A DNA stretch of 32,986 nt, taken from Elusimicrobiota bacterium (GTDB lineage: Bacteria > Elusimicrobiota > Elusimicrobia > Elusimicrobiales > UBA9959). The stretch lies in contig JAHJSU010000047.1 in assembly GCA_018829985.1 (NCBI GenBank), positions 1-32,986 on the forward strand. Direction: 5' to 3'. Shown here piece after piece: positions 4,549-32,986 of the stretch (positions within the stretch are counted from its first letter, which is position 1; each line of letters opens with the position of its first letter). The notes under the pieces were generated by a model. The model was not told the origin of the DNA. It saw only the letters and a list, made by a program, of their open reading frames with translations, and searched no databases. The translations under genes were made by a program, and so were the position numbers.

Positions 4549-4661
4549 GTAACTATTCAGGTCTGTCGTCGTAGTGGCAGAGTTTACTCTGCCCAAAAAG
4601 GCAAAGCAAGCTTTGCTACTACAAAAAATACGTTAAAAATACGGAGAACCTGAGTAGTTAC
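4549..4661. mobile_element. MITE-like element A (113 bp), TIRs GTAACTATTCAGG/CCTGAGTAGTTAC, two internal perfect hairpins
   Basis: Exact 8-bp direct repeat AAGATAAT on both sides (4541-4548, 4662-4669); near-identical inverted copy at 12594-12710. Confidence 0.88.
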
Positions 4662-12593: not shown

Positions 12594-12710
12594 GTAACTA
12601 CTTTCTCAGGTTCTCCGTATTTTTCACGTATTTTTTGTAGTGGCAAAGCTTGCTTTGCCTTTTTGGGCAGAGTAAACTCTGCCACTACGACGACAGACCT
12701 GAGTAGTTAC
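12594..12710. mobile_element. MITE-like element B (117 bp), inverted copy of element A
   Basis: Reverse complement matches 4549-4661 with 3 substitutions and a 4-nt insertion; no clear target duplication. Confidence 0.85.
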
Positions 12711-12713
12711 AAT

Positions 12714-13891: not shown

Positions 13892-14773
13892 TTATATCTT
13901 GTTCAGGGCAGCTATATAATCCTTCAATTGCTGGTCTTCGGGCGAGATCTTCAGAGCTTTCTGCCAGGTGCGTTTGGCCTGCGCGTAATCTTTCAGCTGC
14001 AGATGCACCGAGCCGAGGCGTTTCAGGGCTGTAAAATCGCCGGGCTCAAGCCTTAACACGGATTGCAGTTCTTTTACGGCAAGATAAAATTTGGAGTCGT
14101 ATATGTAGTGCAGCGCCACGTCTTTCTTATGCTCTAGTATGCCCATGGTTGCCGGCTTTGTATCGTTCATTTTAATATCGGGCCTTTCGTCATCTATGAC
14201 CGCCAGCAGGCGGCTGAAGCGGGCTTCGCCGGGGGAAAGTTCACGGGAATATCTGAGCGAATCGTAGGTGAAGCGCAGGTCTTCCTTTTCGGTTATATAG
14301 GAAGCAAGCCCGTTCACGGCCAGAGTCCAGGATTTCGACCTGGACGGTTTTTCTTTCACTATGGCGTTCACTTTCTTAAGCCGCCGCTGGAGCTTGAGAA
14401 AAGCCGGGTTCGTGGCGTCGGTGGCAAGCAGTTCTTCCAGCTTAAGAAGCGCGTCGCCGTATCCGCCTTTGGCTATCAGTTTATAAAACTGGGGTTTCAC
14501 ATTGTCCGACGATTTTGAGAGCTTTTCCCTTGCGTCGGCTATCATGTTCCTGGCGGTTACCTGGCCGGGGTCGAGCTTGAGCGCCAGGTCCCACTGCTCT
14601 ATCGCTTTCTGATAGTTTTTGGCGCAGTAATATTCAAAAGCCGTGTCGTAATATTTTTCCAGCTGTTCGCTTTTGGCGTTTTCAGCCTGCTCCGGAGCCG
14701 CGAAAGCGGGCGGCCGCAAACCGGCCAAAATGAAACATGAAAATAAAAAAATAAATTTCATAATTTGATACAT
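13892..14773 (-). CDS. TPR-repeat secreted protein (start revised to 14773)
   Basis: YYCAKNYQKAIEQWDLALKLDPGQVTARN and LKDYAQAKRTWQKALKISPEDQQ; first 26 residues of the ORF-track version come from an intergenic repeat. Confidence 0.8.
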   Translation of the reverse strand: MYQIMKFIFLFSCFILAGLRPPAFAAPEQAENAKSEQLEKYYDTAFEYYCAKNYQKAIEQWDLALKLDPGQVTARNMIADAREKLSKSSDNVKPQFYKLIAKGGYGDALLKLEELLATDATNPAFLKLQRRLKKVNAIVKEKPSRSKSWTLAVNGLASYITEKEDLRFTYDSLRYSRELSPGEARFSRLLAVIDDERPDIKMNDTKPATMGILEHKKDVALHYIYDSKFYLAVKELQSVLRLEPGDFTALKRLGSVHLQLKDYAQAKRTWQKALKISPEDQQLKDYIAALNKI

Positions 14774-14791
14774 AGGAATTTCCTTTTTGCT

Positions 14792-14944
14792 TTTACCGCA
14801 GAGTCGCAGAGTACGCAGAGAAATCTTTCTCACACAAAGGCACAGAGCCACAAAGTTTCATTTTCCGGCATTTCTTCGCGCCTTCGCGTCTTTGTGTGAT
14901 CTTATTCTCAATCCTCTCTGCGTACTCTGCGACTCTGCGGTAAA
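14792..14944. repeat. Composite inverted repeat with perfect 30-bp arms (CGCAGAG type) and nested 10-bp arms
   Basis: tttaccgcagagtcgcagagtacgcagaga at 14792-14821, reverse complement at 14915-14944; tcacacaaag/ctttgtgtga at 14830-14839/14890-14899. Confidence 0.9.
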
Positions 14945-18978: not shown

Positions 18979-19092
18979 GTAACTACGAGACAGCTAGGCA
19001 GCTAGACAGCTAGACAGCTAGACAGCTAGACAGCTAGACAGCCAGGCAGCTTGACAGCTTCTGATTCCAGCCGCCTCGCTGCCTGTAGTTAC
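18979..19092. mobile_element. MITE-like element F with GTAACTAC...GTAGTTAC ends and CTAGACAG tandem interior
   Basis: gtaactacgagacagctaggcagctagacagctagacag...ctgcctgtagttac. Confidence 0.6.
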
Positions 19093-20907: not shown

Positions 20908-21061
20908 GAAACTACTCAGGTTTTTAGGCTGAAGGCAGTTAGACTATTAGGTAAGAAGCAAGAAAGTGATTGAGCAAGAGAGTGATTCTTCCTTGCTTAC
21001 TTACTTTCCTGCTTACTCACTGTCCCCTGACAGCCTACAGCCTGTTCACCCGGGCAGTTAT
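20908..21061. mobile_element. MITE-like element E (uninterrupted relative of the 28002-28269 element, inverted)
   Basis: Ends gaaactactcagg.../...cgggcagttat; reverse complement matches 28128-28269 with about 11 differences over ~137 positions. Confidence 0.75.
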
Positions 21062-22169: not shown

Positions 22170-22275
22170 ATAACTGCCCAGGTGGATAGGCTGTAGGCAG
22201 TTAGGCTGTAGGTAAGAAGCAGAGACACAGACTAACAGCCTGATAGCCTACAGCCTAAGCAGCCTAAGTAGTTGC
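22170..22275. mobile_element. MITE-like element D
   Basis: ataactgcccaggtggataggctgtagg ... cctacagcctaagcagcctaagtagttgc. Confidence 0.6.
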
Positions 22276-26511: not shown

Positions 26512-27999
26512 ATGAAAATAAAAAAACACAGGCATGCAGGTGCATTATTCTTGTTGATTTTGTCTTCTGCTGTTTTTAGCGTGGAAGCGCGGGAGATGAT
26601 GTTTGCCGGGAAGTTCTATCCGGCGGATAAGGAAGAACTTGCCGGGTTCGTGGATTCCGCTTTGGCCAAAGCCGCCGTCCCAAAACTCGGTGGTGCGGTC
26701 CTGGCCGTTATCGCTCCGCACGCCGGTTATCCTTTTTCCGGACGGATCGCCGGCTACGCCTATAAAGCCATAGGCGACGAATACGATACCGTCGTAATAC
26801 TGTCCGCCGGCCATACCATGTCCGTCAAAGGGGCCGCCATTGTAAAGGACGGTTTCTTTGAAACGCCGCTCGGCAAAGTTCCCGTGGATAAAAAACTGGC
26901 CGGCGAACTTATCAAGACCTGCCCGCTTTTTGAGAATAATTCCGCCGCCCACGCCAACGAACACGCGGTGGAAGTCCAGCTGCCGTTCCTCCAGCGGAGG
27001 CTCAAAAAGCCGTTCAAGCTTCTGCCCGCCGTCCTGAACACGGAAAATATAGGCGATCTCGTCAAGATCGGCGAGACCCTGGGCCGAAAACTTAAAGGCA
27101 GAAAAGCGCTTATAGTCGTCTCCGCCGACTTTTCCCATTATCCCGATCATAGCTACGCTAAAAGAGTGGATGAAACCCTCGGCCTTGCGATAAAAATGAT
27201 GAATCCGGAATATTTCCGGCTGGCCAACAGGATACTGCTCAACAAGGGAATACCGGAACTCGCAACCTGCGCCTGCGGCGAAGCGGCGATCACGGCCGCG
27301 ATGGCCGCCGTAAACACGCTTGGTCCCGCGCAATTTCTGGAGCTCAAATACGCCGATTCCTACGATGAGTACCCCCAACAGTCGTCTCCCGACCGGGTGG
27401 TGGGCTATATGGCCGGAGTTTTTCTCAAAAGCGAAAAAGCCGCCGCCGGCAAGGTCGTACTGAACGACGGGCAAAAAAAAGAACTTTTGAAAGAAGCCAG
27501 GACGGAAATTAAAAATCGGCTTTTGGAAATAAAACCAAAACGGGACCGGCTATCCGCAGATTATGCGTTCAACCTGCCCGGCGCGGTTTTTGTAACGCTT
27601 ACCGGGGGCGGCGATTTGCGCGGCTGCGTCGGCACTATTGAGCCGCGCATGACGCTGCTTGACGCCGTGCGCTACGGCGCTCTGTCCGCCGCGTTCGAGG
27701 ACAGGCGCTTTAAGCCTGTGGGAAAAGGGGAGCTTGAAAAACTGAAGATCGAAATATCCATCCTGTCCCCGCTTAAAAAAATAGCCGGCGCCAAAGGGAT
27801 AATCCCGCATAAGCATGGCGTGGTTATTGTCAGGGACGGACGTTCCGGATTGTTCCTGCCCCAGGTCTGGGAGCAGATACCGGGCAAAGAAGATTTTTTA
27901 AGCGGGCTGTGCTCGCAAAAAGCGGGTCTTGAGCGCGGCTGCTGGCGGGATAAAAAAACCGGGATTTACGTCTTCACCGTAGACGCCTTTCAGGAATAA
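26512..27999 (+). CDS. MEMO-AMMECR1 fusion (AmmeMemoRadiSam system proteins B and A) with N-terminal signal-like segment
   Basis: FYPADKEELAGF..VIAPHAGYPFSGRIAGYAY...VSADFSHYPDH (MEMO); PGAVFVTLTGGGDLRGCVGTIEPR...LFLPQVWEQIPGKEDFLSGLCSQKAGL (AMMECR1). Confidence 0.92.
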   Translation: MKIKKHRHAGALFLLILSSAVFSVEAREMMFAGKFYPADKEELAGFVDSALAKAAVPKLGGAVLAVIAPHAGYPFSGRIAGYAYKAIGDEYDTVVILSAGHTMSVKGAAIVKDGFFETPLGKVPVDKKLAGELIKTCPLFENNSAAHANEHAVEVQLPFLQRRLKKPFKLLPAVLNTENIGDLVKIGETLGRKLKGRKALIVVSADFSHYPDHSYAKRVDETLGLAIKMMNPEYFRLANRILLNKGIPELATCACGEAAITAAMAAVNTLGPAQFLELKYADSYDEYPQQSSPDRVVGYMAGVFLKSEKAAAGKVVLNDGQKKELLKEARTEIKNRLLEIKPKRDRLSADYAFNLPGAVFVTLTGGGDLRGCVGTIEPRMTLLDAVRYGALSAAFEDRRFKPVGKGELEKLKIEISILSPLKKIAGAKGIIPHKHGVVIVRDGRSGLFLPQVWEQIPGKEDFLSGLCSQKAGLERGCWRDKKTGIYVFTVDAFQE

Positions 28000-28001
28000 G
28001 G

Positions 28002-28269
28002 GTAACTGCTTAGGTGGATAGGGTAACAGTTTAGCCTTCTTAAAAAAATATGTAGTGGCAAAGCTTGCTTTGCCTATTGCTCGCAGAGCAAGCTCTGCAA
28101 CCACCTTCGGTTTGACTAAACTGTTACTGGATAGGCTATAGGCTGTCAGGGGACAGTGATTAAGCGGGAAAGTAAGTAAGCAAGGAAGAATCACTCTCTT
28201 GCTCAATCACTTTCCTGCTTCTTACCTGATAGACTAACAGCCTTCAGCCTAAACAACCTGGGCAGTTAC
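28002..28269. mobile_element. MITE-like element C (outer), interrupted by a nested element
   Basis: gtaactgcttagg ... acctgggcagttac ends; see nested element. Confidence 0.8.
28023..28127. mobile_element. Nested MITE-like element (105 bp), perfect 12-bp TIRs GTAACAGTTTAG/CTAAACTGTTAC
   Basis: Exact 8-bp duplication TGGATAGG at 28015-28022 and 28128-28135; internal hairpins ggcaaagc/gctttgcc and gcagagc/gctctgc. Confidence 0.92.
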
Positions 28270-28283
28270 AATAGCGAAATAAT

Positions 28284-29399
28284 ATGGCCCTGATGAACAG
28301 ATGCCCGTTCTGCATGGGAAGCCTGCCGCTTAACGCCGTCACGTGTGAACATTGCAAGTTTGGCGTAACTCCCGGCACCTGTTACGCCTGCAAAAAACAG
28401 AACGCCCCGGCCGCCGGGGTTTGCGCCTATTGCGGCGGAAAATATCTTATCGTAGACGAGTCAGGGCTGAACGCCGCGGTTAAAAAGAAAAAAGAACCCG
28501 CGCCGCCTCCCGTTAAAGAACCGCCGAAGCCCGCCGCGGAACGGCCGAAACCCGCCGTGGAAACGCCTGACCCCGTTGCGGAACAGCCGAAGCCCGCTTC
28601 ATTATCCCCGCAAACAACTCCTTCGCGCGCTCTGCCGAAAGGGTTTGAAAAACTTACCGATGAACTGAACGAAGCCACCGGCTTCCCGGTCGCGGCGCGC
28701 TGCCTGGCCGACGCCGCTGAAATGGCGCTGATACCGGCCGGAAAATTTTCGATGGGCGCGCTGGATGAGGAGGGCGCCCGGGACGAGCACCCTTGCCATG
28801 TGGTATCGCTGGAGGCCTTTTATATTGATAAACGCCAAGTGAGCGTGGCGCAGTTCAGGAAATTCTGCGCGGCGACAAAACGGGAAATGCGCGAGCAGCC
28901 CCCGTGGAGCGGCGACGCGTATCCGGTCGTAAATGTGAACTGGTACGACGCGACGGCCTATTGCGAATGGGCGCGCAAATCGCTGCCCACGGAGGCCGAA
29001 TGGGAAAAGGCGGCCAGAAGCGGCATCGAGGCGACATACAGCTTCGGCGAGAACGAAAGAGAAATCGGCGATTACACCTGGTACGCCGCCAATTCCAAAC
29101 AGCAGGCCCATCCGTCGGGGGAAAAAAAGCCCAATAACTACGGACTTCACGAGATGCCCGGCAATGTCCTGGAATGGTGCCTGGACGGCTATGGCGAAAA
29201 TTATTATGAAATAACTCCGGAAGCGGACCCCAGGGGGTCCGACAGCGCTATAGTCATAGTCTGCAGAGGGGCGGCCTGGGACCTTGACGGCGACTACGCG
29301 CGCTGCGCCAAGCGCGGGTTCCGGCAGCCGGACGCCCGGCGGGACAATCTCGGGTTCCGGTGTGTTTCGTCCTTTCTTACTCCTTTAGAAAAGGCTTAA
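28284..29399 (+). CDS. Zinc-ribbon plus SUMF1 (formylglycine-generating-enzyme-like) domain protein
   Basis: CPFCMGSLPLNAVTCEHCKFGVTPGTCYACKKQNAPAAGVCAYC; MALIPAGKFSMGALDEEGARDEHPCHVVSLEAFYIDKRQVSVAQF...MPGNVLEWCLDGY...GFRCV. Confidence 0.9.
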   Translation: MALMNRCPFCMGSLPLNAVTCEHCKFGVTPGTCYACKKQNAPAAGVCAYCGGKYLIVDESGLNAAVKKKKEPAPPPVKEPPKPAAERPKPAVETPDPVAEQPKPASLSPQTTPSRALPKGFEKLTDELNEATGFPVAARCLADAAEMALIPAGKFSMGALDEEGARDEHPCHVVSLEAFYIDKRQVSVAQFRKFCAATKREMREQPPWSGDAYPVVNVNWYDATAYCEWARKSLPTEAEWEKAARSGIEATYSFGENEREIGDYTWYAANSKQQAHPSGEKKPNNYGLHEMPGNVLEWCLDGYGENYYEITPEADPRGSDSAIVIVCRGAAWDLDGDYARCAKRGFRQPDARRDNLGFRCVSSFLTPLEKA

Positions 29400-32703: not shown

Positions 32704-32986
32704 ATGAAAACCAAATTAATCATATCGGCGGTTCTCACCGCCGCTGTTTTATTTTTAAATCCGATTTCCTTTGCTGCAAATAACAACTGTAGTGGCAGAG
32801 CTTGCTCTGCCTCCTCTCAAATAAAAACTGCCCAGGACAAAGCCGCCGGTGCCGGCAAGAAAAATTCCACAATAGAGAGTTCACAGAAAACGGGTTCCGT
32901 TCTTTTTGACGGCGTGGATCCCAATCTCCCGGCCAAAGACTTCGACCCGGATTCCTCCAACCCCGCCGCCCTGACCGGCGGCGGCC
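32704..32986 (+). CDS. Secreted protein, N-terminal part only (truncated by window end)
   Basis: MKTKLIISAVLTAAVLFLNPISFAANNNCSGRACSASSQIKTAQDKAAG... open to the end of the window. Confidence 0.75.
   Translation, partial: MKTKLIISAVLTAAVLFLNPISFAANNNCSGRACSASSQIKTAQDKAAGAGKKNSTIESSQKTGSVLFDGVDPNLPAKDFDPDSSNPAALTGGG
32789..32811. repeat. MITE-cargo palindrome GTAGTGGCAGAGCTTGCTCTGCC inside a coding sequence
   Basis: ggcagagc tt gctctgcc hairpin; same word as in elements A, B and the nested element. Confidence 0.85.

Follow-up and report, generated by a model that had tools for sequence, protein, structure and literature searches.

The nested locus and its two repeat families

The window, by which we mean the whole stretch of 32,986 nucleotides analysed from an Elusimicrobiota bacterium, carries a Memo/AMMECR1 gene followed 284 nt further on by an FGE-sulfatase gene. 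The space between them is occupied by an outer repeat that is split near its left end by a second, shorter one. The features of the locus, followed by the relatives of the outer element in the same window, are as follows.

28002..28269, strand not assigned: outer MITE, 155 bp before interruption, with IS66/ISBst12-type ends (basis: the ends, the absence at locus L062 of sister species G001, and relatives L031, L033-L037 and L040)
28002..28014, plus: left terminal inverted repeat of the outer element, GTAACTGCTTAGG
28015..28022, plus: target-site duplication copy 1, TGGATAGG
28023..28127, plus: inner MITE, 105 bp (this genome has six complete copies and two truncated at contig ends, 95-100% identity)
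28023..28034, plus: left terminal inverted repeat of the inner element, GTAACAGTTTAG
28052..28104, plus: core of the inner element, two inverted GTAG-headed hairpins, REPIN-like, common with the 135-bp repeat family
28116..28127, minus: right terminal inverted repeat of the inner element, CTAAACTGTTAC
28128..28135, plus: target-site duplication copy 2, TGGATAGG
28257..28269, minus: right terminal inverted repeat of the outer element, CCTGGGCAGTTAC
20908..21061, minus: element E, an uninterrupted outer paralogue with decayed ends (90% identity over 152 nt across the junction)
22170..22275, plus: element D, a related outer-type MITE that carries GGTGGATAGGCTGTAGG uninterrupted
4549..4661, plus: outer-type MITE with the perfect 8-bp duplication AAGATAAT
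12605..12711, minus: another copy of the type at 4549-4661; the arms are 97% alike and one end has decayed

The initial annotation described a 105-bp element with perfect 12-bp ends between identical 8-bp flanks, and its sequence and coordinates are exact; the ends of the outer element, which it lacked, are now set at 28002-28014 and 28257-28269. The inner ends form a perfect inverted pair that does not recur in the window. Perfect 12-bp inverted-repeat pairs no more than 200 bp apart number 41 in the window, overlapping ones included, and only the inner-element pair is flanked by a repeat matching at seven or more of eight positions. Markov-shuffled windows (n=200) yielded a single 12-bp pair with such flanks, or 0.005 per window. 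Five other full copies lie elsewhere in the genome, three of them with differing perfect 8-bp duplications (CTTTACTG at L002, AAAACCTG at L003 and CTAACTGC at L004). The flanks of L006 match at 7/8 and those of L005 show no 8-bp duplication, which brings the perfect duplications to four of the six full copies, the window one counted. The smallest difference between copies is a single base, and copy numbers in this genome are lower bounds. Candidate pairs of the inner type in this genome and its relatives have flanks agreeing at 7/8 or better in 13 of 24 cases, against 3 of 552 mismatched controls, in which left and right flanks were taken from different elements; the corresponding values for the outer type are 18 of 34 and 3 of 1122, and both fractions are conservative because overlapping ends gave rise to some spurious candidate pairs. 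The inner unit is a mobile element and qualifies as a MITE in being short, non-coding and multi-copy, with 12-bp ends and duplications. The copy in L002 lies between inverted AGGTACAGGTAGAGGTAAAGG-like arms (1340-1765) and may itself lie within yet another MITE-like repeat.

The uninterrupted outer sequence of 155 bp was made by script, by removing the insert and one copy of the 8-mer. As originally claimed, the restored sequence matches elements E and D, the alignment to E running unbroken through the junction; it also aligns to L033, L035, L036, L037 and L040, with a gap at the site of one base at most. TGGATAGG occurs once in element D, where there is no insertion, and its counterpart in element E is TGAACAGG; on this comparison the 8-mer is native outer-family sequence. 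Since it is native to the outer family and the other inner copies have other 8-mers, the suggestion that the 8-mer might belong to both families regardless of insertion fails. The outer end consensus is GTAACTRCYYAGG, and the duplication made by the outer element itself is not recognisable at the window locus, where the flanks GAATAAGG and AATAGCGA match at 2/8. A tandem array with an 8-bp unit (AGACAGCT) lies at 18980-19067 of the window, and a similar 8-bp periodicity is present in the cores of outer-type MITEs.

The outer element is absent from the orthologous site (L062) of G001, the nearest sister species compared, whose neighbouring protein has 83% amino-acid identity. There the Memo/AMMECR1 gene is directly followed by the FGE-sulfatase gene (CAGGAATAAATATGGCC), with TAA and then ATATG at the junction. 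Because the two genes abut in G001 and are separated here, the outer element was either gained in this lineage or cleanly lost in the sister species. The proposed comparison of related genomes for empty sites thus supplied one for the outer element but none for the inner insertion alone, a step supported by paralogous rather than orthologous sequence evidence.

Affiliation with the IS66 family, provisional for the inner element

Among 61 genomes an IS66 transposase is found in G001 only. The element at L149 (32-2467) has ends GTAACTACTCAG and GTAACTGCCCAGG, which match the outer ends, and contains a DruA-like ORF (PF14236) upstream of a 393-aa IS66 transposase (PF03050, 7e-48; NF033517, 3e-83). 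No clear target duplication was seen in the G001 IS66 copies examined, and the second of them, L150, has no convincing ends. Plasmid relatives of this transposase have clear ends and perfect 8-bp duplications in nine of 12 loci examined, drawn from outside the Bacillus cereus-group plasmids that also gave IS66 hits. IS66 elements with GTAAC/GTTAC-type ends and perfect 8-bp duplications occur in Leptolyngbya (GTAACTACTCAGG), Acaryochloris, Deinococcus (GTAACTGCTCAGC in Deinococcus grandis), Planococcus (GTAACTACTTAGG), Geobacillus and Chlorohelix (GTAACAATTCAG/GTAACAGTTCAG); the IS66 loci of Pseudanabaena, Fischerella and D. radiodurans gave no clear ends. GTAA-type ends like those of the outer family are likewise present in L149, L200, L204 and L207 and in the published ISDge4, a member of the ISBst12 group with ends GTGACTACTCAGCA/GTAACTGCTCAGCA and an 8-bp repeat (PMC12898284), which was the sole relevant result of a literature search with exact sequences.

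Since the same ends surround an IS66 transposase in G001, assignment of the outer family to the ISBst12 group of IS66 is well supported. The group (ISBst12, ISDge4) and the outer family have in common ends that start with GTAAC and an 8-bp duplication, whereas the window elements code for nothing and the G001 element has the DruA-like ORF as an extra. A search of the genome under study found no IS66 transposase in what is a fragmented metagenome assembly. Such assemblies tend to lose high-copy insertion sequences, which are collapsed. The assignment ties a large share of the small repeats to the ISBst12 group.

The inner family also has both GTAA-type ends and an 8-bp duplication. Its end GTAACAGTTTAG is one base off the IS66 end GTAACAGTTCAG of Chlorohelix, a member of the Chloroflexota, the nearest insertion sequence end, and for this reason the family is placed provisionally in the ISBst12 group, to which it likely belongs. 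An exact-end scan of genome contigs located the inner type in MAGs labelled Deltaproteobacteria (L174), Verrucomicrobia (L176) and Desulfonatronovibrio (L177), as well as in another Elusimicrobia bin (L175). The duplications are perfect over 8 bp in L174 and L177, 7/8 in L176 and absent from L175, so that inner-type ends with 8-bp duplications extend beyond Elusimicrobiota to MAGs from two or more further phyla, Desulfobacterota among them. L175 is the same contig as G005:C86, with identical length and coordinates, which places the family of the window in Elusimicrobiota. Locus L094 in G015 (84% over query 1-56) is another non-coding repeat.

The transposase that moved the inner family is the point at which an alternative has to be weighed. 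The nesting may be real and the inner family nevertheless mobilised by a non-IS66 transposase that makes 8-bp duplications and uses GTAAC ends, a reading we consider unlikely, though less so than any other rival. It draws on the fact that genomes rich in GTAACAGTTTAG MITEs yielded no IS66 transposase, bar one sister species in which the 12-mer occurs once. None was found in the three genomes from other phyla that carry these MITEs, which are fragmented assemblies; none was found between GTAACAGTTTAG ends in the genome under study, its relatives or these three genomes, all of them incomplete assemblies; and a search of the relatives and the three genomes for an autonomous partner, with GTAACAGTTTAG pairs at insertion sequence distance, returned MITEs only. 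Against this reading stand the GTAAC start, the 8-bp duplication and the one-base difference from the Chlorohelix end, together with the loss of collapsed insertion sequences from MAGs. Two contigs with ends 3-5 kb apart, C337 and C97, were tried as insertion sequences and consist of separate MITEs and host genes. One inner-type inverted end, at L159 (G005:C64), lies about 140 bp past the end of a Y1-type (RAYT-like) transposase gene; it has no second end to match it.

Order of events and competing readings

The nested insertion of one MITE inside another is real and thoroughly documented, and the interpretation of the initial annotation as transposition is supported by inner copies with different flanking 8-mers and by outer relatives that lack the inner element. 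Because the inner element is nested in the outer one, the outer came first and the inner later. The best joint reading, and one we regard as very probable, is of two successive MITE transpositions with ends of the IS66-family ISBst12-group type. In this lineage the 155-bp outer MITE would first have inserted downstream of the Memo/AMMECR1 gene, ahead of the FGE-sulfatase gene that follows it. A 105-bp MITE from a second subfamily would subsequently have inserted 13 bp inside the outer left inverted repeat, and filling in of an 8-bp staggered cut would have left TGGATAGG on both sides. Both events would be cut-and-target transpositions of miniature elements without a transposase; that ISBst12-group transposases supplied in trans moved them is well supported for the outer family and likely for the inner one.

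Alternatively, the nested pair might have been retained for an effect of its hairpins on expression of the FGE-sulfatase gene downstream. The two genes, nearly adjacent in the sister species, have been set well apart here, and the inner element folds well (z -3.6); but a search of 27900-28400 found no promoter-like or terminator-like site, and because the element is not common to the sister species there is no sign of conservation. Retention for such an effect is improbable, and the nesting appears to have no selected function.

A single composite repeat, always so built with its 8-mers and formed without insertion, is scarcely credible: TGGATAGG does stand in element D without any insertion, but the inner element is missing from outer relatives, the remaining full inner copies are found away from this outer sequence with other 8-mers around them, for which reason the reading was rejected, and no further copy with the same outer-inner arrangement was found in the genome. 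Chance joining of two elements by misassembly or repeat recombination, which the fragmented assembly with its many contigs ending in repeats might suggest, can be dismissed with equal firmness, since an exact 8-bp duplication, two intact 12-bp ends and an outer element continuous on either side would be unexpected, and about 4.7 kb separates the locus from the closer end of the contig.

Two successive transpositions are an ordinary outcome, nested MITEs being a known kind of event that one would expect wherever MITEs crowd the intergenic space. MITEs of known insertion sequence families have been described in bacteria, as for MITEAba12 of Acinetobacter (PMC6382973). The window elements resemble these in being short, non-coding and multi-copy with inverted ends and target duplications, and differ in their parent family and in that one copy lies within a member of another family. 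The locus provides a clean, datable insertion pair in a phylum on whose mobile elements the literature searched seems to say little.

Hairpin cores and the 135-bp repeat

The core of the inner element is made of two inverted GTAG-headed palindromes (GTAGTGGCAAAGCTTGCTTTGCC ... GCAGAGCAAGCTCTGCAACYAC). They resemble a REPIN; REPINs and REP sequences go with RAYT (TnpREP) transposases, and the genome has eight matches to Y1_Tnp (PF01797); unlike REPINs, the core sits within transposon ends with an 8-bp duplication. A lone GTAG-headed hairpin without MITE ends (GTAGTGGCAGAGCTTGCTCTGCC, window 32788-32815) resembles a single REP.

The core hairpins are common to a 135-bp repeat with ends TTCTACAGCCGCAC/GTGCGGCTGTAGAA, present in at least 40 near-identical copies in the genome (loci L210-L239, e.g., L212, L218, L227, L228 and L231). 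Ten of the 11 copies with both flanks readable have a 4-bp duplication (CTAC/GTAG, CTAT or CTAA), and in seven of these ten, restoring the target gives an inverted end of the GTAACTAY-TCA type, the end of the outer family. The 135-bp repeat mostly inserts into inverted ends of the outer-type family, and this may be the more unusual result. Because the repeat is so often inside outer-family ends, nested insertions are common in this genome, the one in the window being an instance. A comparable preference is known from IS4321 and IS5075, IS110-family elements that insert into Tn21-type inverted repeats. The 135-bp repeat, too, mostly occupies inverted ends belonging to a different transposon family, but it is non-coding and makes a 4-bp duplication. 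One could tentatively speak of layered parasitism, a reading we entertain without favouring it, in which ISBst12-type MITEs are invaded by a second ISBst12-type family of MITEs with REPIN-like hairpins and by a third, 135-bp family, built on that hairpin core, that prefers the inverted ends of the first. The targeting of transposon ends by the 135-bp repeat merits separate study. Elsewhere in the window, close to the start of the 13892-14851 ORF, 93 bp separate the arms of a perfect 30-bp inverted repeat (14792-14821 and 14915-14944).
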